A DNA stretch of 54,485 nucleotides, from positions 83,655-138,139 of the forward strand of contig NZ_PZJQ01000007.1 in the NCBI RefSeq assembly GCF_003206065.1, in the 5' to 3' direction. Numbering within the stretch: position 1 is the first letter of the stretch; every line of letters starts with the position of its first letter. A model generated the notes under the pieces. The model ran no database searches. It had not been told where the DNA came from and saw only the letters and a list, made by a program, of their open reading frames with translations. The stretch is from Salinicola halimionae. GTDB taxonomy: Bacteria > Pseudomonadota > Gammaproteobacteria > Pseudomonadales > Halomonadaceae. Positions 16,027 to 42,283 of this stretch are shown here, in pieces. The position numbers and the translations under genes were made by a program.

Positions 16027-16081
16027 AAGCCGGTAGTTTAGAAACCGGAAGGTTTTAAACAGGGAATCTAGAAGCCGGAAG
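16021..16081. repeat. Direct repeat spanning the 3' ends of two convergent genes
   Basis: ATCTAGAAGCCGGTAG (16021-16036) and ATCTAGAAGCCGGAAG (16066-16081) are 15/16 identical and 45 bp apart. The first supplies the last codons and stop of dusA. The second supplies the stop and last codons of the convergent gene on the other strand. The pair flanks the hairpin at 16036-16060. Confidence 0.85.
16036..16060. terminator. Hairpin between convergent dusA and aspartoacylase-family gene
   Basis: GTTTA-G-AAACC (16036-16046) pairs with GGTTTTAAAC (16051-16060) around a GGAA loop, a 10-bp stem with one bulge. It is nearly symmetrical and T/A-rich at the base, so it could act in both directions, but no long T-run follows. 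Confidence 0.55.
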
Positions 16082-17090
16082 TCTCGTAGCGGGACTGAAA
16101 GCTTTCCACCGCGTTCTCGACGTCATCGATCTCCTCATAGCGAGCGACGTGAAATAGCGCCTCGCCCTCGTTGACCAACGGCAGATTGCTCATACCGATA
16201 ACGATGCCGTCGGCACTCGCGACCACTGGAGCCTCATCATTGCCGAACGGATCGGCGACCACCCCCAGTGTCTGCTGTTTGGCGACCCGCGCTCCCAGCC
16301 TGACACGCGGCCGCAGGATGCCATCGATTGGCGCTCTCGCCCAGCTGGAACCATTGGCAATTTCCGCCGCTGGCGGTGTACGCCGTCGACTGTCCGCCGG
16401 CAGCATGCCGATCAGGCGCATGACACGTCGAATCCCTCGAACCCCGGGCGCAATCGCCCACTCGTCGAAACGCAGCGCCTCGCCAGCCTCGTAGGTCAGC
16501 ACCGGCACGCCACGATTCTGGGCGTACTCACGTAGGCTCCCCTCGCGCAGCTCGGCATTCAGAATCACCGGTACGCCGAACGCCTCGGCCATGGCCTGGG
16601 TCTCGAGATTCTGGCGCAGCTGAGAGCGAATCTGCGGCAGATTGGTGCGATGGATGGCGCCGGTGTGCAAGTCGATGATATGCGTGGCCCGATCAACCAT
16701 CTCTTCGCGCAGTAACGCGGCGATACGCGAGCCCAGCGAGCCGCTTTCGCTCCCCGGGAAGCAGCGGTTGAGATCGCGACGATCCGGCAGATAACGTGAC
16801 TGGTGCACGAAGCCGAAGACGTTGACGACCGGCACGGCGATCAACGTGCCCCGCAGGCGCGAAAGGTTCGGCAGTCTCAGTAGTCGGCGAACGATCTCGA
16901 CGCCGTTCAGCTCGTCGCCGTGAATCGCGCCACAGACCAGCAGTACCGGGCCCGGCTGGCGGCCGTGAACCACCTCGACCGGAATATGCAGCGGCGCATG
17001 CGTGTAGAGCTTGGCGACCGGCACGTCGACCTGACGCCGGGTCCCGGGCTCTATTCTCTCGCCAACGAGCGTGAAAACTTCCTGCGCCAT
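16068..17090 (-). CDS. Succinylglutamate desuccinylase/aspartoacylase-family zinc hydrolase
   Basis: M14-family-like zinc carboxypeptidase fold of the AstE/AspA superfamily, 340 residues, cytoplasmic. Zinc ligands are recognisable in CGAIHGDELNG (His and Glu) and in IIDLHTGA (His). Arg-rich substrate loop RRDLNRCFPG and the C-terminal beta domain (PIDGILRPRVRLG, ASADGIVIG) are typical of the subgroup often annotated only as deacylase. The true substrate is unknown and it is not part of an ast operon here. The ATG at 17090 follows AAGGG. It lies downstream of yceI on the same strand (67 bp), so it could belong to that transcript. Confidence 0.85.
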   Translation of the reverse strand: MAQEVFTLVGERIEPGTRRQVDVPVAKLYTHAPLHIPVEVVHGRQPGPVLLVCGAIHGDELNGVEIVRRLLRLPNLSRLRGTLIAVPVVNVFGFVHQSRYLPDRRDLNRCFPGSESGSLGSRIAALLREEMVDRATHIIDLHTGAIHRTNLPQIRSQLRQNLETQAMAEAFGVPVILNAELREGSLREYAQNRGVPVLTYEAGEALRFDEWAIAPGVRGIRRVMRLIGMLPADSRRRTPPAAEIANGSSWARAPIDGILRPRVRLGARVAKQQTLGVVADPFGNDEAPVVASADGIVIGMSNLPLVNEGEALFHVARYEEIDDVENAVESFQSRYETSGF

Positions 17091-17157: not shown

Positions 17158-17769
17158 TCAAGGCGAGTCATCCTGCTGCACGGCTTCCAGTTCGAAGATC
17201 AGGGTCACGTGATCACCGACCATCTCATTGTTGACGCCATAATCCATTCCCCAGTCGCTGCGATCGAGAGCACCTCGAACCGACAATCCTAAAGTGCGCC
17301 GTCCATGACCAAACGGATAAACCTCGTCCTTGTTCAGTGTCACATCAAGCGTTACCGGCTCAGTATGCCCCAGCATGGTGAGCTCCCCCTCGAGCGTGCC
17401 GGTGGTCGGTGATGAGGGCTCGAAGTGAGAGGCCACGAAATGCAGCCGGGGATAATCGTCGGCATCCAGAAAATCGTCTTCACGAAGGTGGCGGTCACGA
17501 GCGTCGAGATTGGTGAAAACGCTGTTGGTCTGGATCGTGATCTCCGCCGAACTCAACGTCTGCATCTCCCGGTCGTAGACGAAACTGCCCTCGCCTTCCA
17601 GAAACTGGCCCAGCAGATTCTCATAACCCATGTGCTCCACCATGAAAGCAATGGTGAAGTGCTCGGGATCGATCTCGAAATGTCGGGGCTCGGCTTGCGC
17701 CGTCGATATCGTCGAAGACAGCAAAAGGGCCAGGGACGCGGTCAGTAAAGGCAATCGCATTGGGCCCAT
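17158..17769 (-). CDS. YceI-family periplasmic lipid-binding protein
   Basis: Secreted YceI-like lipocalin-fold protein, 203 residues. An N-terminal signal peptide (MRLPLLTASLALLLSSTISTAQA) with cleavage after AQA is clear. The mature part begins with the family pattern HFEIDPEHFTIAFMVEHMGYENLLGQF and has SVFTNLDARDRHLREDDFLDADDYP and the closing GDHVTLIFELEAV. Relatives bind polyisoprenoids or other amphiphiles in the periplasm. The ATG at 17769 is taken because AAGGAG lies five bases upstream. It follows the CDP-alcohol phosphatidyltransferase by 61 bp on the same strand and is probably co-transcribed, which suggests a lipid substrate from that pathway. Confidence 0.92.
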   Translation of the reverse strand: MGPMRLPLLTASLALLLSSTISTAQAEPRHFEIDPEHFTIAFMVEHMGYENLLGQFLEGEGSFVYDREMQTLSSAEITIQTNSVFTNLDARDRHLREDDFLDADDYPRLHFVASHFEPSSPTTGTLEGELTMLGHTEPVTLDVTLNKDEVYPFGHGRRTLGLSVRGALDRSDWGMDYGVNNEMVGDHVTLIFELEAVQQDDSP

Positions 17770-17830
17770 GAGGACTCCTTGTCATGAAGAGGAATAGGGG
17801 GAAGAAGGAAGCGCTGGCGTTCGAAGGTGA

Positions 17831-18592
17831 TCAAAATTCGGTATCGTCGACAGGCCGTCGGCGCCAGAGCCAGACGATGTCCCGACCGAAGGAGAGCGCC
17901 AGCAACAGCGCCGCCAGCAGTGCAAATCCGCTAGCCCAGGCGGGTTCGATGAAAGGCAGCAGGCAGACCATCAACGTCGCCACCTGCCAGACGCAGACCG
18001 TCTTGCGCAGGACGCTATCGGGCAGCGCACGATTGAGCCAGGGCGAATAGATTCCCGCAATCACGAACGCGTAACGAGCCAGCCCGATGACTAGAATCCA
18101 AGAGCCGACCTTGCCCAAGGCAATCACTGCCGTACACAGCACGACGATGAAAAATGCGTCCAGCTCCATATCGAAGCGTGCGCCAAATGCGCTCGACGAG
18201 CCGGTTCGACGTGCCACCCAGCCATCGATACCGTCGAGCGACAACGCCAGCAACGCCAACGCGGCAATACCCTCGGCATGTCGCTGGATAAAATCCGGAT
18301 AAACCACGACACCTGCGATGATGGCGATCAGTACGGCACGGATCAACGTGATGCGATTGGCCCAGCCGAGACCGTGACGAGACGCAGGCCAAGCCCACAG
18401 CACCGCCGTGGCGATCGCCACATAGATCCCGCCCGCGGTGAAGCGCAACCCCAAAGGAGCGGAAAATGCCCACTGCACCCATTCGGTCAACAAGGCGACC
18501 AGAGCCAAGCCCGCCGCCAGCTCGACCCACCCCCGAATGGACCGGAACCGCCGTGAAGGCGCCACCGGTATACGCGCCGACGAATGTCGCAT
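17831..18592 (-). CDS. CDP-alcohol phosphatidyltransferase-family membrane protein (second copy, not PgsA)
   Basis: Integral membrane transferase of the CDP-alcohol phosphatidyltransferase superfamily, 253 residues from ATG 18592. That start is chosen over 18778 because GGGAGG precedes it, and the longer version is Arg-rich and non-family-like. The catalytic signature DGIDGWVARRTGSSSAFG then ARFDMELDA keeps the DG-x2-AR-x8-G-x3-D-x3-D spacing. Several hydrophobic helices flank it. The acceptor alcohol cannot be told. Since pgsA is elsewhere in the window, this copy has a separate job. It is divergent from the MDR-PTPS-GT-MT operon. A GTAC-N7-GTAC dyad (18660-18674) lies 68 bp upstream of its start, and a second one nearer the divergent operon, suggesting shared control. 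Confidence 0.88.
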   Translation of the reverse strand: MRHSSARIPVAPSRRFRSIRGWVELAAGLALVALLTEWVQWAFSAPLGLRFTAGGIYVAIATAVLWAWPASRHGLGWANRITLIRAVLIAIIAGVVVYPDFIQRHAEGIAALALLALSLDGIDGWVARRTGSSSAFGARFDMELDAFFIVVLCTAVIALGKVGSWILVIGLARYAFVIAGIYSPWLNRALPDSVLRKTVCVWQVATLMVCLLPFIEPAWASGFALLAALLLALSFGRDIVWLWRRRPVDDTEF

Positions 18593-18659
18593 CGCTGGAT
18601 CCCTCCCATCGCAAGATCGTAGTCTGACTCCCGTCCGGCGCAGTCGCCATCGATATCCG

Positions 18660-18674
18660 GTACGCGATCCGTAC
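18660..18674. promoter_or_regulatory. Operator-like dyad GTAC-N7-GTAC (weak copy)
   Basis: GTACG-CGATC-CGTAC, five-base arms around a five-base centre. Same geometry and a similar centre (ATC shared) to the dyad at 18838-18856. It sits upstream of the CDP-alcohol phosphatidyltransferase start. Confidence 0.5.
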
Positions 18675-18837
18675 AAGTTTGGATGCACTTTGCCTCTTTT
18701 GCGAGAAACGCGCTTCAACCGACACGCATAGCCATCCACGAATGGCTCCACGGCCGGAACGAACAGAGAATCCGACACCCAGAAGGCACGCCCCTCGCGA
18801 CCGCCATGTCAGTCAATCTCAATCCGCCGATTTTTAT

Positions 18838-18856
18838 TTGTACACTATCTGTACAA
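18838..18856. promoter_or_regulatory. Operator-like perfect dyad TTGTACA-N5-TGTACAA
   Basis: Seven-base perfect inverted arms around CTATC. It overlaps a TACAAT that could be a -10 box and lies 134 bp upstream of the MDR gene. Probably a repressor or activator site for the divergent cluster. The regulator is not in the window or not recognised. Confidence 0.65.
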
Positions 18857-18989
18857 TGCTAAATCGTCACATTCTGCCATACTCCCTCATAGGATAACGT
18901 CGAACCAAAGCGATACGAACTAAAGTAAGACGAACTCGAACAACGGCGAGCCGGCCACTCATATCTGTCTTCATGGAGCGAAGCTTTCA

Positions 18990-19961
18990 ATGACCACGCC
19001 TTACGCCCACGCTTTCTGGTCACTCGGCGACGGTACCGGTGAAATTCGCCAAGCCGAGCTCAGTGCCAGCGGCGACCTGATGGTGAGAACCTGCTACTCG
19101 GCCATCAGTCGTGGCAGCGAGACTCTGGTTTTCAACGGCCAGGTGCCGGTCAGTGAATACCAGCGAATGCGCGCACCGTTTCAAAGCGGCGAGTTCCCAG
19201 GCCCGGTCAAATATGGCTATTCCAATGTCGGCGTCGTCGAACAGGGCGCTCACGACTGGCACGGTCGGTATGTCTACTGCCTTCACCCTCATCAGACCCA
19301 TTACCGCGTCACCGTCGACGACGTTGTCCCGCTGCCAGCCGACGTGCCACCGCAACGGGCAATCCTCGGCGCCAACATGGAGACGGCACTCAACGCCTTG
19401 TGGGATGCCGCTCCCGGCATTGGAGACCGTATCAGTGTCATCGGTGCCGGCGTGGTCGGCTCTCTGGTAGCGTGGCTTTGTGCTCGGTTACCCGGCGCCC
19501 ACGTCCAGTTGATCGATATCGATGAGCGCAAACGTTTCCTCGGCGATGCTCTGGCCGTCGATTTTCGCACCCCGGAAACGGCCGCTGCCGAACAGGATCT
19601 GGTCATCCATGCCAGTGCTTCCGATGCTGGCCTGCAGACGGCTCTTTCTTTGGCCGGGTTCGAAGCGACCGTGCTCGAAATGAGCTGGTACGGCAGCCGC
19701 GAGGTCAACCTGCCGCTCGGCGAAGCCTTCCACGCTCGTCGCCTGACGCTGCGTTCGAGCCAGGTCGGCAGCGTGTCGCCCGGCCATCGTCCTCGCTGGG
19801 ATCACAAGCGGCGGCTCTCTCTCGCCCTGTCGCTACTCAACCACGACTGTCTGGATGTACTGATCAGCGGAGAAAGCCACTTCCGGGATCTGCCAGAGAC
19901 ACTGAAGCGGCTTAGCCAGCGCGACGACCATACCCTGTGCCAACGCATCCGTTACGGCTGA
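18990..19961 (+). CDS. MDR-family dehydrogenase (zinc ligands not conserved)
   Basis: Medium-chain dehydrogenase/reductase-fold oxidoreductase, 323 residues, cytoplasmic. The Rossmann motif VIGAGVVG is at about 151-157. The N-terminal catalytic region has [10 protein letters not shown] (Cys35) and [11 protein letters not shown] (71-81). Here the usual GHE zinc/catalytic motif is replaced by YGYSNVG, so it looks like the zinc-free or divergent BchC-like branch rather than a classical alcohol dehydrogenase. It is the first gene of a five-gene plus-strand operon (MDR, PTPS-like, GT4, methyltransferase, membrane protein), 91 bp before the PTPS-like gene. Substrate unknown. Context suggests a pterin- or pyrimidine-derived alcohol or ketone. 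Confidence 0.85.
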
Positions 19962-20052
19962 TCCACGTAACCTGCTCGGCTCGCCAGCCGTGCGGCGAAA
20001 GCAGTCAGCGAGGAACGGTTCATCAGGTCTCAGCCATCAAGGAGCGATAGCA

Positions 20053-20451
20053 ATGTTCAGTCTGACCGTCCGCGATCACATGATGATCGCCCACAGTTTC
20101 AACAGTGACACTTTCGGCCCGGCACAGAAACTGCACGGTGCGACTTACGTGGTGGATGTCACCTTCAAGCGCCCCGAACTCGACGCGGACGATCTCGTCG
20201 TCGATATCGGTCTGGCCAGCGAGATTCTGAAACGGGTTCTCGGCGAATTCACCTTGAACAATCTCGACGAGATCGACGAGTTCAAGGGTCGTAACACCAC
20301 GACCGAGTTCATGGCGAAGGTCGTTTTCGATCGATTGGCCCACGCCATTCGCCAGGGCGAGCTGGGCGACGGCGGTCGCCATCTCACCGCACTGACGGTA
20401 ACGCTGCATGAATCGCACGTTGCCTGGGCCAGCTACGAAGGAGGCCTATGA
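20053..20451 (+). CDS. 6-pyruvoyl-tetrahydropterin synthase/QueD-family protein lacking catalytic residues
   Basis: T-fold protein of the PTPS/QueD family, 132 residues. ATG 20053 is chosen because AAGGAG lies just upstream. A frame from 19990 has no support. The fold is recognisable from HMMIAHSF (His14, zinc ligand), [26 protein letters not shown] and LHESHVAW (Glu120). Key residues differ: the HGH zinc pair is HGA (His28, Ala30), the nucleophilic Cys that precedes it in active enzymes is absent, and the Asp-His pair of the catalytic triad is Gly-Glu ([10 protein letters not shown]). It probably binds a pterin-like ligand or does another reaction, not the standard PTPS/QueD chemistry. Its stop overlaps the glycosyltransferase start (ATGA). 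Confidence 0.88.
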
Positions 20452-21512
20452 GCGACTTCACCCTTATCGTCGCCGGCGACCCCGGCCAACTGACAGGCGG
20501 CTACGTCTACGACGCGCGAATTGTCGAGGCGCTGCGCGCCAGCGGATGGCAGATCGACGTGGTCGGACTCGACGGGCGCTTCCCGGAGCCTGACGCCGTC
20601 GCCTCTCATGCTCTGGATAGTGCCCTGACCACGCTACCGGACGGCAGTCGAGCCGTCATCGACGGGCTCGCCATGGGCGGGCTGCCGGCGATCGTCGAGC
20701 GTCACGCGTCGCGACTGTCGATCACCGCATTGGTGCATCACCCGCTCTCTGACGAGACCGGGCTGGGAGCACCCGAGCAGCAGCGTTTCCGGATCAGCGA
20801 AACCCGCGTGCTGGCAGCCGTCGAAAGTGTCATCGTCACCAGTGCCTACACCGCCCGACGACTCGCCGACTTCGCCGTGCCGGCCGAGAAGATCGCCGTC
20901 ATCGAGCCCGGCGTCGAGACCGGCCAGTTGGCGAGCGGTGACGGCAGCGGCACACCGCGTCTGCTCTGCATCGCCACGGTCACGCCACGCAAGGGCCAGG
21001 ACCTGCTGGTCGAAGCCCTGGCGGGCCTCACCTCGTTGCCATGGCAGTGCGACCTTATCGGTGCCCTCGATCGGGCCGACGCCTACGTCGACAAGGTACG
21101 CGACGCAATTGCGCGATATCAGTTGGGCGAACGCATTCACCTGTTGGGCTCGCAATCCAGCGGCGGCCTGAGTGCCTACTACCGACAGGCCGATCTCTTC
21201 GTGCTGCCGTCGCATTACGAAGGCTACGGCATGGTGATCACTGAAGCTCTCGCCCACGGCCTCCCGGTCGTTACCACCACGGGCGGTGCCCTGGCTCACA
21301 CCCTGCCGGACGCCGCCGGACTCAAGGTGCCACCGGGAGACGTTGCGGCACTGCGCGACGCGATCCAGTGCATGCTGGAAGAGTCTGAAACCTACCGACG
21401 CTATCAGGCAGGTGCCCGAGAGATGCGCGACACCCTCGGCGACTGGACGGCTGCCGCCACTGCCTTTGGCAAAGCCTTGAAGCGCTCCACGACAGCGGAG
21501 GCGACGCGCTGA
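20448..21512 (+). CDS. GT4-family glycosyltransferase
   Basis: Retaining GT-B glycosyltransferase, 354 residues, cytoplasmic or membrane-peripheral. The N-domain begins with a strand and Gly-rich loop ([16 protein letters not shown]). The C-domain has [16 protein letters not shown] at about 176 and the EX7E motif in [18 protein letters not shown] (Glu258/Glu266), which binds the nucleotide-sugar. It starts in ATGA overlap with the PTPS-like gene and its stop shares one base with the next ATG, so the five genes are translated together. The acceptor is unknown. The neighbours suggest a pterin-like or lipid acceptor. Confidence 0.9.
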
Positions 21513-22450
21513 TGTCGATGCCGTCACCACCTGCCACCGACGCTCCGTTAAGCGACGCCCTGTTCAGCGATCAGTGGCTGACGCTGCGTGAGCCCACCGA
21601 TCACCTGGCGCGCGATGCTCAGCTCACCCACGCCGCGGATCGATGGCTGGCGCGCCGTGCCGCGCCGACCCGGCCTTCCGAGACTCAGCCATTAGTAACA
21701 GGACGCACGCTGGTCGATCTAGGATGCGGTAGCGGTTCGAACCTGCGCTATCTGGCGCCGCGGCTGCACGGCGCGCAGCACTGGCGCCTGATCGATCACG
21801 ACGCCGAACTGCTGGCCCATGCTCGACTGCGCTGTGAACAGCTGACCAGTGCCGATGCGCGACCGATTCATCTGGAGTCCCACACCGCTAGCCTGGCGGA
21901 TACCTGGAAGCACGGTCTGCAAGGCGCCGATCTGGTCACGGCTTCGGCACTATTTGACCTGCTGACGCCTGCCGATGTCGAAGCATTGGCGGACGCCTGT
22001 CAGAACCACGACTGCGCCGTGTTGTTCGCACTCAGCGTCGATGGCCATATTCGCTTCCACGATGCCAGCGGGGCCGCGTTATTCAGCGATGACGACCGCT
22101 TCATGCTGGCGGCGCTGGAGATGCATCAACACCGCGACAAGGGCAGCGGCCCGGCCATGGGGACAAAGGCATCGTACTACCTGCGCGAGAACTTCCATCG
22201 TCGCGACTACCTCGTCCGCGAAGCCACTTCGCCCTGGCGTCTCGGGCCCGAGTCACTGACGCTCGCCGAGTCCCTGCTGGCCGGCTGGCGCAGCGCGCTC
22301 CACGAGCAGCTGCCACAGCAGATCAGCCGCATCGACCGTTGGCATGGCGAACGTCTCGAAGGGCTGATGCGTGAAAAGCTGACATTGACCGTCGGCCATA
22401 AAGACATGTTCGCCACACCGATGGCGACCGCCTCGGGAACGCCAGCGTGA
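21512..22450 (+). CDS. Class I SAM-dependent methyltransferase
   Basis: 312-residue Rossmann methyltransferase. SAM-binding motif I is TLVDLGCGSGSNLRYLAP at about 69-87, followed by an acidic residue in WRLIDHDAELLAHA and the motif-IV region GADLVTASALFDLLTP. The first about 65 residues carry DALFSDQWLTLREPTDHLAR, common in this subgroup. ATG 21512 follows GCGGAGGCG. Translation is coupled to the glycosyltransferase (TGATG) and to the next gene (GTGA overlap). The substrate is not predictable. It likely methylates the product of the upstream enzymes. Confidence 0.88.
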   Translation: MSMPSPPATDAPLSDALFSDQWLTLREPTDHLARDAQLTHAADRWLARRAAPTRPSETQPLVTGRTLVDLGCGSGSNLRYLAPRLHGAQHWRLIDHDAELLAHARLRCEQLTSADARPIHLESHTASLADTWKHGLQGADLVTASALFDLLTPADVEALADACQNHDCAVLFALSVDGHIRFHDASGAALFSDDDRFMLAALEMHQHRDKGSGPAMGTKASYYLRENFHRRDYLVREATSPWRLGPESLTLAESLLAGWRSALHEQLPQQISRIDRWHGERLEGLMREKLTLTVGHKDMFATPMATASGTPA

Positions 22451-23511
22451 AACGCTGGCTTGCACCGGGGCTGCGTCTGGCGGCGACGCTGGCGCTACTC
22501 GGCATGCTGGCCTGGCAGCTGGACACCCGAGATCTGCTGGATCGACTCGGCGAGCTGTCGCCCGGCTGGGTATTGCTGGCCATCCTCATCGGCGTTCCCC
22601 AGGTCGTACTGTCGGCCTGGCGCTGGCGCATGACGGCGCATCAGGTAGGAATCGCCCTGCCCTGGCCTACCGCCATTCGCGAATACTATCTGGCGACGTT
22701 TCTGAATCAGGTGCTGCCCGGCGGTGTCGTGGGCGATGCCGCGCGGGCCTGGCGCCACGGCAGCGCCGGGCAGACGTCGAATGCGCCATCAAAATCGCAG
22801 TCCGGCCCGGCAATCCGCGCCGTGATCATCGAGCGCGCTTCCGGTCAGGTCGCCCTGCTGGGCGTCGCCATTCTGGCGATAGTCCTTTCACCCGCGCTGC
22901 GCGGGGGCATTCGTCAACTATGGCACGCACACGCTGGCGCCGGTTGGGTGGGCATCATCGGGCTATCGTTGACTGCCGTTTTAGTGCTTGTGGCCGCTTT
23001 CGGGCTGACGCGGAGCCCAGCAGGGGCAGCGTTGAAACGGTTCTGGCAGGATCTTCATCGTGCCCTGCTGACGGTCAAAGTATGGCCCGCACAACTCGCA
23101 AGCTCGCTGCTGGTCGTCGCGACCTATATCGCGGTATTCCTGTGCGCCGCCCGCGCGCTCGGCCTCGAACGTCCCATTGGCGAGCTGTTGCCGCTGATCC
23201 CCCCGCTACTGATGGCAATGGCGATTCCGCTGACCGTCGCCGGCTGGGGGTTACGTGAAGGCGCCGCCGCCGTGATCTGGCCGCTGGCTGGCCTGCCGAC
23301 GCAGGAGGGGGTGTTGCTATCGGTGACCTACGGCCTGCTGATCCTCGCCGGGAGCCTGCCCGGCCTGGCCGTGCTGTTGATGGATCATCGGTCGGCCCGC
23401 CGGGGTGCTGGCCGGCGAGCTGCTGATCGGCGAATGGTCAGGGACATACAGACTTTCACCCCCGATAGCGTCGTTCCTGATCGCCTCGCCTCGGGAGGAG
23501 AGCCAAGATGA
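22447..23511 (+). CDS. LPG-synthase-TM / UPF0104-family membrane protein (flippase-like)
   Basis: Integral membrane protein of about 354 residues with seven to eight hydrophobic helices, of the family that forms the flippase half of MprF and includes YbhN/AglD-type proteins. Conserved features are the SAWRWRMTAHQVGI and YYLATFLNQVLPGGVVGDAARAWR segments, the latter being the family hallmark, and AIRAVIIERASGQVALL. It lacks the cytosolic aminoacyl-transferase domain. GTG 22447 overlaps the methyltransferase stop. As last gene of the operon it probably moves a glycosylated lipid or exported metabolite across the inner membrane. This role is inferred from family and context. Confidence 0.85.
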   Translation: MKRWLAPGLRLAATLALLGMLAWQLDTRDLLDRLGELSPGWVLLAILIGVPQVVLSAWRWRMTAHQVGIALPWPTAIREYYLATFLNQVLPGGVVGDAARAWRHGSAGQTSNAPSKSQSGPAIRAVIIERASGQVALLGVAILAIVLSPALRGGIRQLWHAHAGAGWVGIIGLSLTAVLVLVAAFGLTRSPAGAALKRFWQDLHRALLTVKVWPAQLASSLLVVATYIAVFLCAARALGLERPIGELLPLIPPLLMAMAIPLTVAGWGLREGAAAVIWPLAGLPTQEGVLLSVTYGLLILAGSLPGLAVLLMDHRSARRGAGRRAADRRMVRDIQTFTPDSVVPDRLASGGEPR

Positions 23512-23513
23512 GA

Positions 23514-24416
23514 TCACTCTCCAGCCGCCGCGTGATCGCGCAGGTCCAGGTCGAACAGCATGTCGTCGCCCAGCTGGAAATGGCGACAGGCCGGTCGCAG
23601 CGCGCCATCCAGCGTATCGATCTCCGGCAGCGTCAGCGCCGGACGGCCGGAGCCGATCAGCATCGGTGCGACGACGCTGTGCAGTCGGTCGAGACAGTCC
23701 GCTTCGAGAAACCGCGAGATCGTAAGCCCCCCGCCCTCGACCAGAATCCGCCGATGGCCATGCTCGGCCAGCAGCGCCACGATCTGCGCCGGGTCGATAC
23801 CGGACGACCCCGGCGACAGCGATTTCACGCTGACGTGATCAGCGTCACCGTGGCCGGCCACGCCTTCGTTGACGATATGCCAGGTCGGCGCAACCGGCTG
23901 TCGGAACACGCCTCGCTCTACCGGCACTCGCCCGCGCGGGTCGAGCACCACGCGCAAGGGATTGTCGCCCTCGACGTGGCGAACCGTGAGCTGCGGATCA
24001 TCGGCGTCCACCGTTCCTGCGCCCACGACGACGGCATCCACCAGCGCCCGCAGTTGGTGAAGGTGTACCAGGCTCTGCGCCCCGGTGACGTAGTGGGAAG
24101 CACCACTCGCCGTGGCGATTCGGCCGTCCAGGCTCTGACCGATCTGGGCAATGACGCAGGGATCACGAGACGTGTCCGTCATGCACCACGGCAACCAGAT
24201 CGACAGCAGTCGAGCGGCCTGATCGTCGACCTGATGATTGCAGGTCCAGCCGCCGTGAGCGTCGATTTCGAGGCGCAGATCGCCCTCGACAATGACGCCG
24301 TCGAAGCGCGCTTCGGCAGTGCCATCCCGGGTCAGTGCTGCCACGCGACGAATCCAGCGCCAAGCCCTGACGCTCTGCTCGGAAGCGATCGGCAGGGAAG
24401 GTATGCGAAGAGTCAT
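23514..24416 (-). CDS. RibD C-terminal-type (dihydrofolate-reductase fold) pyrimidine reductase, stand-alone
   Basis: NADPH-dependent reductase with the RibD C-terminal/RIB7 fold, 300 residues, without a deaminase domain. The reductase starts at about residue 80 with QIGQSLDGRIATASGASHYVTG, then ALVDAVVVGAGTVDADDPQLTVR and ILVEGGGLTISRFLEADCLDRLHSVVAPMLIGSGR. The first about 75 residues are a separate segment with Trp-Arg repeats. ATG 24416 has AAGGAG five bases before it. The longer frame to 24575 was rejected. It is convergent with the flippase-like gene (stops 2 bp apart) and divergent from the RibA-like gene. In riboflavin synthesis this fold reduces the ribosyl side chain. Here it probably acts in the neighbouring cluster. 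Confidence 0.88.
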   Translation of the reverse strand: MTLRIPSLPIASEQSVRAWRWIRRVAALTRDGTAEARFDGVIVEGDLRLEIDAHGGWTCNHQVDDQAARLLSIWLPWCMTDTSRDPCVIAQIGQSLDGRIATASGASHYVTGAQSLVHLHQLRALVDAVVVGAGTVDADDPQLTVRHVEGDNPLRVVLDPRGRVPVERGVFRQPVAPTWHIVNEGVAGHGDADHVSVKSLSPGSSGIDPAQIVALLAEHGHRRILVEGGGLTISRFLEADCLDRLHSVVAPMLIGSGRPALTLPEIDTLDGALRPACRHFQLGDDMLFDLDLRDHAAAGE

Positions 24417-24552
24417 GGTCACTCCTTGGCCAGACGGCATGACAGGGTAGCAAAAATCGTCGTAGCAAAGATCACCGAGCGGGAGGCGGTGGCCGCCATT
24501 GGCGCATGTCCGCCAGCCACGCAGACCCCGGTATGAGGGATGTGAATCACCA

Positions 24553-24612
24553 ATGAAACGAATCATGGATGACACGCATCATGGACGACACGAATCATGG
24601 ATGACAATGTGA
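24553..24612 (+). CDS. Possible 19-codon upstream ORF before the RibA-like gene
   Basis: ATG at 24553 to TGA at 24610-24612 encodes a His/Met-rich 19-mer whose stop overlaps the GAGGAG ribosome site of the RibA-like gene. It is made almost entirely from the 16-bp repeat and has no clear ribosome site of its own. It could be a leader peptide, or chance. Confidence 0.25.
   Translation: MKRIMDDTHHGRHESWMTM
24558..24605. repeat. 16-bp tandem repeat, three copies
   Basis: ACGAATCATGGATGAC at 24558-24573 and 24590-24605 are identical. The middle copy, 24574-24589, differs at two positions. It lies in the 5' leader of the RibA-like gene, ending 12 bp before its ribosome site region. Confidence 0.92.
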
Positions 24613-24622
24613 GGAGACGAGC

Positions 24623-25762
24623 ATGCGACAGGTAGAACGCGCGATTTTCGATCTGCGACGCGGCCTTCCGGTTCTGGTACGAGCCGCCCAGGGCGACGTG
24701 ATGGTTCACCCGCTCGAGGGCTGCGATGATGATGCCCTGGCAGCGCTGCACGTCTTCAGCGGTAATCGTCCCGCACTGGCGTTGACGCGCCATCGCCTAT
24801 CTCGGCTGGGCATCGAGTTCGAGCCGAGGGTCGGACTGATACCGATCGACCCCGCCGACAGTGCCGAGGAGATCATAGCCAGAGCCAGTGCCGTTGGGCA
24901 TCGATTGACGCCAGATCGCCGGGCGGCCGCCGCCAGTGAGGGCAGCGTGGCAGCGCTGGACCTGATGCGCATCGGGCTGCTGATCCCGGCGGCGGTCGTC
25001 GCCGACATCAGCGATGCCCAGCGCGACCATGTCGAGACACTGGTTGCCGAGGGCACGGTGCTGGCCGTCGCTGCCGAACAGGTCTCGGAGTACGCCGACG
25101 CTCGCTCTCACTTTCTCAAGCGCACCAGCGACGCGGAAATTCCGTTGTCCCACGCAGAGCGCGCGAAGTTCGTGATGTTTCGCGAAGCGGACGGCATGCG
25201 GGAACATATCGCCATCGTCATCGGCGAACCCGCGGAGTGGAGCGATGCCGTCCCCGTGCGGCTGCACTCTGCCTGTCTCACCGGCGATCTCTTCGGCAGC
25301 CTGCGCTGCGACTGCGGCGAACAGCTGCGCGAGAGCGTGCGTACCATCGATGAACGTGGCGGCGGCGTGCTGCTCTATCTTGCCCAGGAAGGACGCGGCA
25401 TCGGCCTGGCCAACAAGCTGCGCGCCTATACCTTGCAGGATGGCGGACTGGATACGGTGGACGCCGATCACGTTCTCGGTTTCGGCAACGACGAACGCAC
25501 CTACGGCGTCGCGCTGGAGATGCTCGAACAGCTCGAGATCACTCGTATCGAGCTGTTGACCAACAATCCGGAGAAGATCGCCGCCATGGACCAGGGCGGT
25601 GTCGAAGTCGTCAACCGTCGCGGCGTCTACGGCAAACTGACCAAGCAGAACCGGCGCTACCTGGATGCCAAGGCCAAGCGCGCCGGCCACTGGCTGGAAG
25701 AGGTGCTCAACGATGGCGACGAGGGGCCGGTGACGCCACTCAGACGACCCGCGGCGCACTGA
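24623..25762 (+). CDS. GTP cyclohydrolase II with DHBP-synthase-like N-terminal domain
   Basis: 379 residues. The C-terminal half is a GTP cyclohydrolase II: zinc ligands Cys218, Cys229 and Cys231 in CLTGDLFGSLRCDCG, the phosphate loop YLAQEGRGIGLANKLRAY, catalytic Asp290/Arg292 in DERTYG, and LLTNNPEKI. The enzyme opens the GTP imidazole ring, releasing formate and pyrophosphate. The N-terminal about 165 residues resemble the DHBP synthase (RibB) part of RibBA but lack its usual acidic RE/DE active-site pattern near the start, so this half may be inactive. ATG 24623 has GAGGAG upstream. It resembles the long RibA type of alphaproteobacteria. It is divergent from the RibD-type reductase and convergent with the creatininase-family gene. 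A housekeeping ribBA is expected elsewhere, so it may feed this cluster. Confidence 0.9.
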   Translation: MRQVERAIFDLRRGLPVLVRAAQGDVMVHPLEGCDDDALAALHVFSGNRPALALTRHRLSRLGIEFEPRVGLIPIDPADSAEEIIARASAVGHRLTPDRRAAAASEGSVAALDLMRIGLLIPAAVVADISDAQRDHVETLVAEGTVLAVAAEQVSEYADARSHFLKRTSDAEIPLSHAERAKFVMFREADGMREHIAIVIGEPAEWSDAVPVRLHSACLTGDLFGSLRCDCGEQLRESVRTIDERGGGVLLYLAQEGRGIGLANKLRAYTLQDGGLDTVDADHVLGFGNDERTYGVALEMLEQLEITRIELLTNNPEKIAAMDQGGVEVVNRRGVYGKLTKQNRRYLDAKAKRAGHWLEEVLNDGDEGPVTPLRRPAAH

Positions 25763-25807
25763 GCACTGACTGAGCCAGCGCGACCTTAACCGGCAGAACC
25801 GTAGCCG

Positions 25808-26596
25808 CTAGCGCAGCGTCGCCAGATCGAAGCGGCCCGCCTCCTCGATGATCCGCGCCAGGCGATCGGCGAAATGGGAGACCAGCCGGCGGCCGGTCTC
25901 GGCGTCGGCCAGCGTTGCATTGCCGGTGACGCCGCTCGGGTGCAGATCCTGCGCCATCCAGGCGTAGCCGGCGTCCCCTTCCGGACCCAGCGTCGAACCG
26001 GCCTGTTCCTGCAGTCGGCCCGCGGACACCGCATCGGCCACATGCTCGGCGCGAACCTTGTGGGGCGCCAGATACAGCATCATCGAGGTTTCCAGTGCGC
26101 CGCCGTGCAAGCCGTGGCGCAACTCCTCGGCAGGCAGCGCCTGCGCTGGCGGCGCGAAGCGAAAGTAGTTGGCCTTGACCACCAGCATGGCGTGGGCCGC
26201 GCGCAGTTCGAGCGCCGCCAGATCGATCACCGCCTTGTTGCCACCGTGACTGTTGAACAGCACCAGCCGTCGAATGCCGGCACGATGAACGGCCTCGCCC
26301 AGCGACTCGATCACACGAATCGCCGTCTCCGGCATCAGGCTCAGCGTACCCGCGAAAGCGGTATGCTCGAGGCTCGAACCCAGCGCCAGCGGTGGCAGCA
26401 CGATCACCTTCTGTCCTGCCTCGAGCCGCTCGGTTGCCACCTCGAGCAGCCCCAGCCCGATATCCAGATCGGTGGAGAGCGGAAGATGGCTGCCATGCTG
26501 TTCGATCGCCGCCAGCGGCAACACCGCCACCGTCGCGTCGTCGACCAGCCCAGCGAGCTCCGTCGTGGTCAAATCCTGCCAGTGATGAACGCTCAT
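25808..26596 (-). CDS. Creatininase-family metal-dependent amidohydrolase
   Basis: Creatininase-superfamily hydrolase, 262 residues. Metal ligands are visible: Glu32 and His34 in AAIEQHGSHLPL, Asp43 in STDLDIG, His117 in FNSHGGN, and Glu169 in HGGALETS. The family includes creatininase, the mycofactocin peptidase MftE, and ArfB, which removes the formyl group from the FAPy intermediate of archaeal riboflavin/F420 synthesis. The last is relevant because a GTP cyclohydrolase II lies tail to tail 45 bp away. Its ATG at 26594-26596 overlaps the recD stop (ATGA), so it is translated as the fourth gene of recCBD. Whether it serves DNA repair or, more likely, the GTP-derived pathway is open. Confidence 0.88.
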   Translation of the reverse strand: MSVHHWQDLTTTELAGLVDDATVAVLPLAAIEQHGSHLPLSTDLDIGLGLLEVATERLEAGQKVIVLPPLALGSSLEHTAFAGTLSLMPETAIRVIESLGEAVHRAGIRRLVLFNSHGGNKAVIDLAALELRAAHAMLVVKANYFRFAPPAQALPAEELRHGLHGGALETSMMLYLAPHKVRAEHVADAVSAGRLQEQAGSTLGPEGDAGYAWMAQDLHPSGVTGNATLADAETGRRLVSHFADRLARIIEEAGRFDLATLR

Positions 26597-39337: not shown

Positions 39338-40645
39338 TCAGGACGGCATCACCGCCAACCTCCGTCCTGCCGGCGAGCGCAACAGAAACAGGCCGATGAC
39401 GATGCCCATCACCGCCAGCGCCGCGACGTAGATCGCCGGCGACATGGGGTACCAGCGCATCAGCGTAGTGACGATGATTGGCGTGAAACCACCGAAGAGT
39501 GCGTAGGCGACGTTGTAGGAGAACGAGAGCCCGCTGAAACGCACCGCCGCGGGGAAGGCCTTGACCGCAATCGCCGGTATCGCGCCGGTGATACCCACCG
39601 CAAAACCGGCCAGTGCGTAGAGCGGCATCAACTGCTCGGGGCGGTGGCCGACCACGCTCATCATCAGCCAGTAACTCGCGCCCAGCAGCGCACTCCACCC
39701 CACCAGCGTCGCCCCGCTACCGAAACGATCGGCACACCAGCCGGCGACCACGCAGCCGACGATCAGACACAGAATCGCCACCACGTTGGCGAGCGAGGCG
39801 TCGAGCCCGGCGTACTGCGCCGCCAGCAGCGGCGGCGTCATCAGCATGACGACGACGATGGCTGCGGTCAGAATCCAGCTCACCGCCATGGCCAGCAGTA
39901 CCCCGCCCAAGTGATCGCGAAGTACCGTCTTGACCGGCAGTCCGGCCGCCAGGGCTCGGCGCTTGCGCATTTCGGCGAAGACCGGGGTTTCACTCAGCCA
40001 GCGGCGCAGGTAGACCGCGATGAGTCCGAACGCGCCACCGAGCAGAAACGGTATGCGCCAGGCGCCGCTCGCCAGTTCTGGCGCAGAGAAGTGCGATTTC
40101 ATCACCGCCGCCACCAGCGAGCCGATCAGAATTCCCGCTGCGAGTCCGGCCGATAGCGTGCCGCAGGCAAGGCCGACGTGACGACGTTGGACATGCTCGG
40201 TGACGAATACCCAGGCGCCGGGTACCTCGCCACCCACGGCGGCACCCTGCAGCATGCGCAGCAGGACCAGTATCAGCGGCGCCAGGTAGCCGATAGATTG
40301 GTAGGTCGGAAGACAGCCGATCGCCAACGTGGGCAGCGCCATCAGCAGGATCGACAGCGTGAACATGCGCTTGCGCCCCAGCAGGTCGCCGAAGTGCGCC
40401 ATCACAATGCCGCCCAGCGGCCTGACCAGGTAGCCGGCGGCGAAGATGCCGAAAGTCTGGATCTGGCGCAGCCATTCCGGCATGTCCGGCGGGAAGAACA
40501 GCTGCCCGATGACCGTGGCGAAGTAGACGAAGATGATGAAGTCGTAGAATTCCAGCGCGCCGCCAAGTGCGGACAGCGACAGCGTCTTGACGTCGCCACG
40601 GGAGATCGGACGCGACGACTCGGACGAGGTGGGGTCGTGAGACAT
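39338..40645 (-). CDS. MHS-family MFS metabolite:H+ symporter (copy 1)
   Basis: 12-helix major-facilitator protein of the metabolite:H+ symporter type (ProP/KgtP/citrate-like), 435 residues. N-terminal ALGGALEFYDFIIFVYFATVIG, the loop 2-3 motif AHFGDLLGRKRMF, and LLRMLQGAAVGGEVPGAW are family marks. It is closely similar to the next gene upstream (same length, same motifs), so they are tandem paralogues. A ribosome site GGAAG precedes ATG 40645. A strong terminator hairpin (40663-40684) lies directly upstream. Substrate probably an organic acid or osmolyte. Confidence 0.9.
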   Translation of the reverse strand: MSHDPTSSESSRPISRGDVKTLSLSALGGALEFYDFIIFVYFATVIGQLFFPPDMPEWLRQIQTFGIFAAGYLVRPLGGIVMAHFGDLLGRKRMFTLSILLMALPTLAIGCLPTYQSIGYLAPLILVLLRMLQGAAVGGEVPGAWVFVTEHVQRRHVGLACGTLSAGLAAGILIGSLVAAVMKSHFSAPELASGAWRIPFLLGGAFGLIAVYLRRWLSETPVFAEMRKRRALAAGLPVKTVLRDHLGGVLLAMAVSWILTAAIVVVMLMTPPLLAAQYAGLDASLANVVAILCLIVGCVVAGWCADRFGSGATLVGWSALLGASYWLMMSVVGHRPEQLMPLYALAGFAVGITGAIPAIAVKAFPAAVRFSGLSFSYNVAYALFGGFTPIIVTTLMRWYPMSPAIYVAALAVMGIVIGLFLLRSPAGRRLAVMPS

Positions 40646-40662
40646 AGTGATCTTCCAAAAAG

Positions 40663-40684
40663 GACGGCACCCGAAGGTGCCGTC
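40663..40684 (-). terminator. Rho-independent terminator with UUCG tetraloop between the two MFS genes
   Basis: Minus strand: arms GACGGCACC and GGTGCCGTC, perfectly paired around TTCG, followed by CTTTTT. It ends the transcript of the upstream MFS gene and stands only 18 bp before the start of copy 1, so it could also control copy 1 by read-through. Confidence 0.92.
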
Positions 40685-40756
40685 GCGATCATTCCGTAGC
40701 GGAACTGCCGAGATCGAAACTCGCTAGTCAGCGCGGTTCGGAACTCGAGACGCGGT

Positions 40757-42064
40757 TCAGTGCTGCATCAATGCCAGACGTTGTCCGTTCGGCGCGCGCA
40801 ACAGGAAGATACCGATGACGACGCCGAGTGCCGACAACGCGGCGATATAGTACGCCGGGGCCGCGGGATGGCTCGCCATCAGCGTCGAGACCACCACCGG
40901 CGTGAACCCGCCGAAGATCGCATAGGCAACGTTGTAGGAGAACGAAAGCCCGGAAAAGCGCACCGCCGCCGGAAACGACTTGACCGCGATGGTCGGGACG
41001 ACGCCGACGATGCCCACGCCGAAACCGGCCAGGCAGTAGAGCAGCATCAGCTGGTCGGGATGGGTCGGCACCGTGTGCATCATGATCCAGTAGGTAATCC
41101 CCAGCAGCAGGCTCCATAGAATGATCGTGATGCCGCTGCCGATGCGATCGCAGCACCACCCCGAGACCACGCAACCGATGATCACGCAGACGATCGCCCA
41201 GACGTTGGCCAGCGAGGCATCGATGCCGTAGACCGCTTGCAGCAGGCTGGGCGTCATCAGGACGACCACTACCACGGCGCCGGTGAGAATCCAGGTGACC
41301 GCCATCGACAGCACCACACTGTCCAGATGCCGACTCAGCACACGCTTGACCGGCAGCCCGTCGGAAAGCGCCTTCTTGGCGCGCATCTCGGCGAATACCG
41401 GGGTCTCTTCCAGGTAACGACGCAGATACACCGCCAGAAACCCGAAGACGCCACCGATCAGGAACGGGACGCGCCAGCCGTATGCGCTCATCTCTTCAGG
41501 GGTGTAATAGGACTTCAGAAATGCCGAGATGATCGAGCCGATCAGAATGCCGGCCACCAGCCCGGAGGCAAGCGTGCCACAGGCGAGGCCAACGTCCTTG
41601 CGTGACACGTGCTCGGTGACGAAGACCCAGGCGCCCGGAACTTCACCGCCCACCGCAGCGCCCTGCAGGATGCGCATCAACACCAGCAGCAGTGGCGCCA
41701 GGTAGCCGATGGTCTCGTAGGTCGGCAGACAGCCGATCAACAGCGTTGGTACCGACATCAGGAAGATCGACAGCGTGAACATGCGCTTGCGACCCAGCAG
41801 ATCACCGAAGTGCGCCATGATGATGCCGCCCAATGGACGCGCCAGATAGCCCGCGGCAAAAATGCCGTAGGTCTGGATCATCCGCAGCCATTCCGGCATG
41901 TCAGGCGGAAAGAACAGATGCCCGATCACCGTGGCGAAATAGACGAATATGATGAAGTCGTAGAATTCCAGCGCACCGCCCAGGGCGGAGAGCGACAGGA
42001 TCTTGATGTCACCGCGTGACAGCGGACGCGAGGGAGCCGCATCGTATTGGGGTGCGTTAGCCAT
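40757..42064 (-). CDS. MHS-family MFS metabolite:H+ symporter (copy 2)
   Basis: Paralogue of the next gene downstream, 435 residues from ATG 42064, exactly the same length. It shares ALGGALEFYDFIIFVYFATVIG, AHFGDLLGRKRMF, GCLPTYETIGYLAPLLLVL (copy 1: GCLPTYQSIGYLAPLILVL) and AVKSFPAAVRFSGLSFSYNVAYAIFGGFTP. An upstream frame to 42172 is not supported. Substrate unknown. The duplicate suggests two related substrates or differing control. It ends at the terminator 40663-40684. Confidence 0.9.
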   Translation of the reverse strand: MANAPQYDAAPSRPLSRGDIKILSLSALGGALEFYDFIIFVYFATVIGHLFFPPDMPEWLRMIQTYGIFAAGYLARPLGGIIMAHFGDLLGRKRMFTLSIFLMSVPTLLIGCLPTYETIGYLAPLLLVLMRILQGAAVGGEVPGAWVFVTEHVSRKDVGLACGTLASGLVAGILIGSIISAFLKSYYTPEEMSAYGWRVPFLIGGVFGFLAVYLRRYLEETPVFAEMRAKKALSDGLPVKRVLSRHLDSVVLSMAVTWILTGAVVVVVLMTPSLLQAVYGIDASLANVWAIVCVIIGCVVSGWCCDRIGSGITIILWSLLLGITYWIMMHTVPTHPDQLMLLYCLAGFGVGIVGVVPTIAVKSFPAAVRFSGLSFSYNVAYAIFGGFTPVVVSTLMASHPAAPAYYIAALSALGVVIGIFLLRAPNGQRLALMQH

Positions 42065-42283
42065 GGCCGTGTTCTTTTTTCTGAGGCGTTGAAACGTACG
42101 TGTCCAGTAGCCAACGTGCTTCACGGAAGCTCGACAGAGGGCGTCATCCGCCGCACGAAGGGGAAACGACATTACCAGACTTTATAAGTTCCGTCAGTGT
42201 GGTGTCGTCAAGCGTCGAATGCCGGGAGAACAGGCTTCGGAACGGGAGTTTCGAGCGCAGAAATTAAAGAATCCGCACAAAAA

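Follow-up and report, generated by a model that had tools for sequence, protein, structure and literature searches.

In a 54,485-nucleotide stretch of the Salinicola halimionae genome (the window), ten neighboring genes at positions 17158 to 26596 were found to be part of a real conserved module. Their association goes beyond chance, since the neighborhood recurs at 105 other loci and the MDR-fold oxidoreductase of the module is present in 17 of the 17 genomes that carry its PTPS-fold protein (PTPS, 6-pyruvoyltetrahydropterin synthase). The gene linkage, the genome-wide co-occurrence and the changes in active sites are direct observations. We put at about one half the probability that the module is dedicated to the biosynthesis of an undescribed GTP-derived product, which would bear a sugar, be joined to a lipid and be moved across the membrane. 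Searches of open-licence PMC papers turned up no description of such a pathway; one may exist elsewhere. The open reading frames (ORFs) of the window were assigned to families by Pfam and NCBIfam profile scans, as follows:

17158..17769, minus strand: YceI-like protein, an optional member (Pfam PF04264, 1.2e-38)
17831..18778, minus strand: CDP-alcohol phosphatidyltransferase (PF01066, 3.3e-15; family motif intact)
18990..19961, plus strand: MDR-fold oxidoreductase without the usual zinc ligands (bchC, 4.6e-9; model pLDDT 91.9)
20053..20451 (ORF from 19990), plus strand: PTPS-fold protein of the SCO6650 type (PF01242, 5.1e-24; PDB 3d7j, 5.7e-52)
20448..21512, plus strand: GT4 glycosyltransferase (PF00534, 3.6e-30)
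21512..22450, plus strand: class I S-adenosylmethionine-dependent methyltransferase (MT; PF13649, 3.5e-8)
22447..23511, plus strand: LPG-synthase-TM or flippase-like membrane protein (LPGS; PF03706, 1.9e-38)
23514..24575, minus strand: RibD_C reductase without a deaminase domain (PF01872, 5.3e-39)
24623..25762, plus strand: GTP cyclohydrolase II (GCHII; PF00925, 3.9e-57 over residues 167-332)
25808..26596, minus strand: creatininase-family amidohydrolase, a candidate deformylase (PF02633, 3.4e-66)

All ten families named in a preliminary description of this DNA were recovered at their places from the ORFs and the Pfam and NCBIfam scans. The same description had counted five genes overlapping by 1-4 bases; overlaps of that size do exist, but at three junctions among four cluster genes (PTPS/GT4, 4 nt; GT4/MT, 1 nt; MT/LPGS, 4 nt, from the ORF coordinates). 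The creatininase gene also overlaps recD by 4 nt, recD being outside the ten-gene set. The start of the PTPS protein is probably at 20053, because this is where the aligned block of 26 homologues starts, on Met in 25 sequences and on Val in one; some of the ORFs extend further upstream. The true start of the CDP-alcohol transferase is probably internal to its ORF, since the first 60 or so residues have no counterpart in most relatives. The closest relative of the window MDR protein, at 98% identity, is from Salinicola halophyticus.

The 105 loci comprise 25 from genomes of the order and class and the best 80 of at least 587 named-species loci. The latter lean to close relatives, and some of the 105 are near-duplicates (L031 and L064, for example, have an identical MDR protein) or are cut by contig ends, so the locus counts are not independent. 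Neighbors were counted, and recounted, by multi-query tblastn within 9.5 kb of the PTPS gene; these counts supersede a first-pass ORF selection, which gave too few RibD, creatininase and other genes. The MDR, GT4 and MT genes were each found at 104 of the 105 loci, the CDP-alcohol transferase at 90, RibD at 84 and LPGS at 82, which bears out the earlier suggestion of an uncharacterised conserved module whose families stay together. As a fixed set of ten it is not supported in the form first given: GCHII (58 loci), creatininase (45) and YceI (38) are optional near PTPS. Three families outside the ten were also counted, the LtaS-like transferase at 24 loci, OpgG at 20 and the FkbM methyltransferase at 19; the LtaS-like and FkbM proteins, and rarely a cytochrome b, are associated with the module elsewhere. 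In a first clustering the top family outside the ten, found at 23 of 106 loci, was the LtaS-like one that was later assigned to the pathway.

The arrangement of the genes is also conserved. MDR, PTPS, GT4 and MT follow each other in this order and on the same strand at 102 of the 105 loci, the CDP-alcohol gene, where present, lies upstream in divergent orientation at 85 of 90 loci, and RibD is downstream on the opposite strand at 68 of 84. GT4 and MT are a single open frame at 25 loci, and the outer flanks of the module vary among genera. Four phyla are covered: the best 80 of the at least 587 loci come from Halomonadaceae, Marinobacter, Variovorax and other Burkholderiales, Alphaproteobacteria, Streptomyces, Micromonospora and Amycolatopsis, together with metagenome-assembled genomes, one of Acidobacteria and two of Gemmatimonadota. 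Three loci from genomes of 1.0-1.1 Mb (L040, L045 and L049, family f188) have an eight-gene module of divergent sequences with neither GCHII nor creatininase.

The PTPS protein is patchily distributed: within the order 12 of the 145 genomes sampled carry it, and within the class 17 of 369. In the 369-genome class sample the MDR protein accompanies PTPS in all 17 at E <= 6.4e-64, in one case (G211) on a different contig from PTPS, GT4 and MT, and a weaker MDR match (1e-32 to 1e-45) occurs without PTPS in four further genomes. In a quick tree of the MDR proteins 25 Actinomycetota lie on one side of a supported branch and the Halomonadaceae genera are scattered, a topology that would fit both old inheritance and transfer. 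The module is also found on plasmids. Among 13 inspected of 20 plasmid PTPS matches, for which the gene table is incomplete, nine have the module whole or in part, two have PTPS without module genes and two are unannotated; the plasmid modules have the same families annotated, sometimes with a cytochrome b, MdoH, sulfatase or ribokinase in addition. On the Streptomyces plasmids L142 and L147 the PTPS homologues stand in a different context, beside MBL-fold and cupin genes. A cytochrome b gene lies inside or beside the module at L140, L141, L150 and L105 and hints at redox chemistry; as a core member it was rejected, with three loci by BLAST and one annotated. Inositol-monophosphatase-family and PfkB/ribokinase genes lie beside the modules L094, L108, L145 and L148 and may represent phosphate-handling steps. 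Carriage by phages was rejected, as none of the 29 pattern matches from a scan of viral contigs was a relative.

The PTPS protein had been described as PTPS/QueD-like, and this name does not survive inspection of its residues. We take the canonical enzymes to have three zinc-binding His (the H of AAH and both of HxH), a catalytic Cys and an Asp-His pair. Among 26 aligned PTPS homologues HGH has its second His replaced, by Ala in 25 and by Thr in one, the position of the catalytic Cys, aligned by eye, is Ala in all 26, and no conserved His is found at the place of the catalytic Asp-His pair. With the catalytic Cys and His and one zinc His replaced, and a score of 41.1 bits against the NCBIfam QueD model TIGR03367 (cut-off 89.25), a canonical PTPS or QueD identity was rejected. 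The family does retain H14, H28, D51, the TTxE motif and the anchoring Glu; this residue, E120, is invariant in an alignment of 19 of the proteins and presumably anchors the pterin ring. A sequence search of the PDB with an E-value limit of 0.01 matched SCO6650 alone (3d7j, 5.7e-52), a protein reported to have neither zinc nor PTPS activity but a pterin-like pocket.

The MDR protein is the weakest family call by sequence, with Pfam NAD_binding_8 (8.6e-4) and NCBIfam bchC (4.6e-9) both below cut-off. Its predicted model (pLDDT 91.9) nevertheless has a clear MDR fold, with L-idonate 5-dehydrogenase as the top Foldseek match (1.5e-19) and polyol, sugar and alcohol dehydrogenases as the fold neighbors. 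The dehydrogenase assignment made earlier is thus upheld for the fold but not for the usual zinc ligands: by eye, against the canonical motif, the places of Cys38 and His59 are taken by Ser and Tyr, and no invariant Cys was found among 31 aligned family members. A zinc-dependent MDR alcohol dehydrogenase was therefore rejected, and with the usual zinc residues absent, 'zinc-binding alcohol dehydrogenase' seems to be the wrong name.

The gene content suited to entry from GTP through a pyrimidine, as put forward in the preliminary description, is present as GCHII, creatininase and a RibD without deaminase. The N-terminal part of the window GCHII, about 160 residues, has no Pfam match. All 57 aligned module GCHIIs retain the three zinc Cys as well as the residues at positions Asp126 and Arg128, two of 59 (L042 and L098, with a tblastn GCHII match and no clean ORF) having been excluded. 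The window protein keeps the equivalent of Tyr105. With a Met at this position, SCO6655 reportedly goes no further than the formyl product, and we take the clusters with a Met-type GCHII and a creatininase, in Streptomyces and some other Actinomycetota, to be of the SCO6655 type. For the comparison, Actinomycetota were assigned from record titles and the window creatininase was set present by hand. Of the 23 GCHIIs from Actinomycetota, all 11 with a creatininase have Met (8), His (2) or Gln (1) at the place of Tyr105, and all 12 without one have Tyr (Fisher 7e-7, ignoring phylogeny). The 34 others, the window included, divide into 30 with Tyr and a creatininase, three with Tyr and no creatininase, and one with Ile and a creatininase. 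A formyl product followed by a deformylase was hence rejected as a universal rule, as it holds in the sampled Actinomycetota only.

The creatininase-family protein is a candidate deformylase; its match to NCBIfam mftE (9.2e-32) is below cut-off. In Sinorhizobium and Brucella the formyl intermediate is deformylated by BrbF, first annotated as a creatininase (PMC9478397). The window RibD has Pfam RibD_C alone, and a deaminase motif was found in none of 7954 ORFs of 106 loci with a pattern that does find housekeeping RibD. Its best PDB match is 6p8c, a 2,5-diamino-6-ribosylamino-pyrimidinone 5'-phosphate reductase. Where the bacterial RibDs 2b3z, 3zpc and 2o7p and the host's own housekeeping RibD have Lys, which presumably reads the 2-oxo group, the window protein has Gln, and the module RibDs tallied at 84 loci have Gln (59), His (11) or Ser (14), the residue having been counted by pattern in 67 and by eye in 17. 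The stand-alone reductases 6p8c and 2azn, which we take to be archaeal, have Asn there. The module RibD scores 100 bits with NCBIfam rib_reduct_arch, the cut-off being 186.

The gene content for glycosyl, methyl and lipid or membrane steps is likewise as had been proposed. The window CDP-alcohol protein has an intact D-x2-DG-x2-AR-x8-G-x3-D-x3-D, which we take to be the family motif, and this region is conserved in 66 aligned members. The LtaS-like family has N-terminal membrane helices followed by a sulfatase-type domain with the alkaline-phosphatase fold; of seven members scanned with PF00884, two were above cut-off, four below and one gave no match. A model (pLDDT 87) matched LtaP/LtaS, MCR-1, EptC and GacH in Foldseek, and Glu246, GDH and GGxS, presumably metal-site residues as in LtaS, are invariant among 15 aligned proteins. 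A profile search found the family in 13 of 369 genomes, namely 12 of 17 with the module and one of 352 without (Fisher 7e-18, phylogeny ignored); with at most three candidates scored in each genome, a few members may have been missed. The gene is not near PTPS in 10 of the 12 module-positive genomes, that of the window included (G000:C6:548261-549943). Thirteen unlinked LtaS-like loci were inspected, and FkbM adjoins at three, a flippase-like gene at one, and a CDP-alcohol transferase and MDR at one. Because of this co-occurrence and these neighbors the LtaS-like protein was counted as a pathway member. Genes for periplasmic glucan synthesis, opgG and opgH, adjoin the module in some Halomonas and Marinobacter relatives and, in the form of mdoH, on Methylosinus and Neorhizobium plasmids (loci L029-L033, L065-L069, L075-L089, L144 and L149 in all), and the host's own genome has two MdoG genes away from the module (L154 and L155).

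From this gene content we infer the reactions and their order, the product and its lipid linkage as follows. GCHII would open GTP to give 2,5-diamino-6-ribosylamino-pyrimidinone 5'-phosphate directly; in some Actinomycetota it would probably stop at the 5-formyl compound, to be deformylated by the creatininase-family protein. The deaminase-free RibD-type reductase would then reduce the ribosyl chain with the 2-amino group retained, as in archaea, where reduction precedes deamination in riboflavin entry. The zinc-less MDR protein may oxidise an alcohol of the side chain. The PTPS-fold protein may bind the 2-amino-4-oxo ring through its kept Glu and perhaps aid ring closure, and the two proteins would thereby form a pterin-like or modified pyrimidine core. 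By pure conjecture, RibD reduction together with MDR oxidation at C2' would produce the ketone of the GTP cyclohydrolase I Amadori step, and a PTPS-type fold could close the second ring. GT4 and the methyltransferase, sometimes one protein, would decorate the core, the CDP-alcohol transferase would join it to a phospholipid, and the LPG-synthase-TM protein would flip the lipid-linked product. The LtaS-like phosphotransferase, mostly encoded elsewhere, could then hand the phospho-head-group on to an acceptor such as a periplasmic glycan, and YceI may carry the lipid form in some proteobacteria. A bolder version, which is tentative and has the odds against it, is that of a new phospholipid class in several phyla: its head group would be a pterin-like ring derived from GTP and bearing sugar and methyl groups. 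GCHII, deformylase and RibD reductase would make this ring in a branch that resembles the archaeal one and has no deaminase, the zinc-less MDR and a catalytically rewired PTPS fold would close it, and the lipid, once flipped outward, would be an LtaS-like donor for periplasmic glucans or a redox or light-absorbing envelope component.

Several observations weigh against a GTP-derived, lipid-linked product. As GCHII and creatininase are within 9.5 kb at just 58 and 45 of the 105 loci, some of which are cut by contig ends, the origin from GTP is not encoded everywhere. The creatininase reaches 22.1 bits with NCBIfam ArfB against a cut-off of 180, and since 30 of 34 non-actinomycetal GCHIIs have Tyr together with a creatininase, deformylation of a Met-type product cannot explain the creatininase there. 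In Actinomycetota the Tyr/Met split largely separates Micromonosporaceae from the rest and may represent few events. Five of the 17 module genomes, of families f184 and f188 (f188 being the 1 Mb genomes), are without the LtaS-like protein, one genome (G484, 85% complete) has two LtaS-like copies and no PTPS, and two Streptomyces plasmids have a PTPS homologue with no module genes among those listed.

One rival explanation is a lipid-glycan decoration whose head group is not derived from GTP, the RibD, GCHII and PTPS folds having been recruited for other substrates. The loss of catalytic residues and one zinc ligand in PTPS, the 47 of 105 loci with no GCHII nearby and the closeness of the MDR fold to polyol, sugar and alcohol dehydrogenases are in line with such a recruitment, but the zinc Cys and Asp126/Arg128 kept in every aligned GCHII, the Met/creatininase pairing in Actinomycetota and the ring-anchoring Glu kept in PTPS speak for GTP, and we consider the explanation unlikely. 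Alternatively, the same early steps could lead to a soluble pterin-type cofactor or a secreted pterin glycoside, with the CDP-alcohol transferase, flippase and LtaS-like proteins modifying a separate, co-inherited envelope lipid. GT4-type enzymes make bacterial pterin glycosides, and the MDR-PTPS-GT4-MT core occurs without an adjacent CDP-alcohol or flippase gene at L037, L048, L107 and L130. The CDP-alcohol transferase at 90 and the flippase-like gene at 82 of the 105 loci nevertheless make a product free of lipid rather improbable, as do two genomes without these genes at the main locus that have one beside the LtaS-like gene (a flippase at L165, a CDP-alcohol transferase at L166).

A further explanation, extra riboflavin, folate or queuosine capacity through accessory copies of housekeeping steps, is suggested by the individual family names and by the automatic annotation of PTPS homologues as 6-carboxytetrahydropterin synthase. 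Elsewhere, however, the host genome has RibA (234 aa), a deaminase-bearing RibD (392 aa), a RibBA-like DHBP-synthase/GCHII protein (396 aa) and a QueC/radical-SAM/tandem-PTPS gene group, and these separate riboflavin and queuosine genes argue against an extra supply. By Pfam, none of the ten genes encodes a deaminase, lumazine synthase, riboflavin synthase, QueC or QueE (lumazine and riboflavin synthase were not searched genome-wide), and the GT4, flippase and CDP-alcohol parts have no role in those pathways. As separate copies are present and neither the scores, such as that with the QueD model, nor the residues fit, an accessory supply was rejected as very improbable.

Four known systems or groups of proteins come closest to the module. 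In Streptomyces coelicolor, SCO6650 is a close homologue of the module PTPS protein, and SCO6655 is said to be a GCHII forming the formyl intermediate, each reportedly having been treated as a single protein; in the open-licence PMC papers searched, SCO6652 and SCO6655 have passing mentions only. QueD and 6-pyruvoyltetrahydropterin synthase share with the module protein the fold and the ring-anchoring Glu, but the latter is without the catalytic Cys and His and has HGA for HGH. Transferases of the LtaS, OpgB and EptA type are comparable in combining a membrane phosphotransferase with a CDP-alcohol enzyme, and opgG or mdoH stands beside the module in some genomes; the LtaS-like protein, however, has about 15% identity to LtaP/LtaS. 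The archaeal ArfA/ArfB/ArfC and bacterial BrbF systems resemble the module in a formyl intermediate and a deformylase (for BrbF, PMC9478397), but the module has GCHII and not ArfA, has no deaminase or lumazine synthase, and continues with genes for GT4, MT and lipid enzymes.

A set of ten to twelve genes ordered alike from Streptomyces to Marinobacter, with an eight-gene form in 1 Mb genomes and no assigned product found, points to a large gap in the knowledge of bacterial metabolism. The proposed pathway would give a context to orphan proteins of the SCO6650/SCO6655 type, and would correct many records to which the names QueD or zinc alcohol dehydrogenase were given automatically. It also predicts that a lipid or glycan modification, possibly UV-absorbing, can be tested for in strains tractable in the laboratory.

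Beside the module in the window (16068-17090) is a gene for an AstE/AspA-type deacylase with a weak DoeB match; such a gene adjoins the module at 12 loci including the window, those named being from Salinicola, Kushneria and one Halomonas. Further along (39338-42172), two similar adjacent MFS-type transporter genes, assigned by eye, appear to be a duplication; within one of the two, at 39708-39800, ARAGORN calls a tRNA with a four-base anticodon, which is probably spurious.

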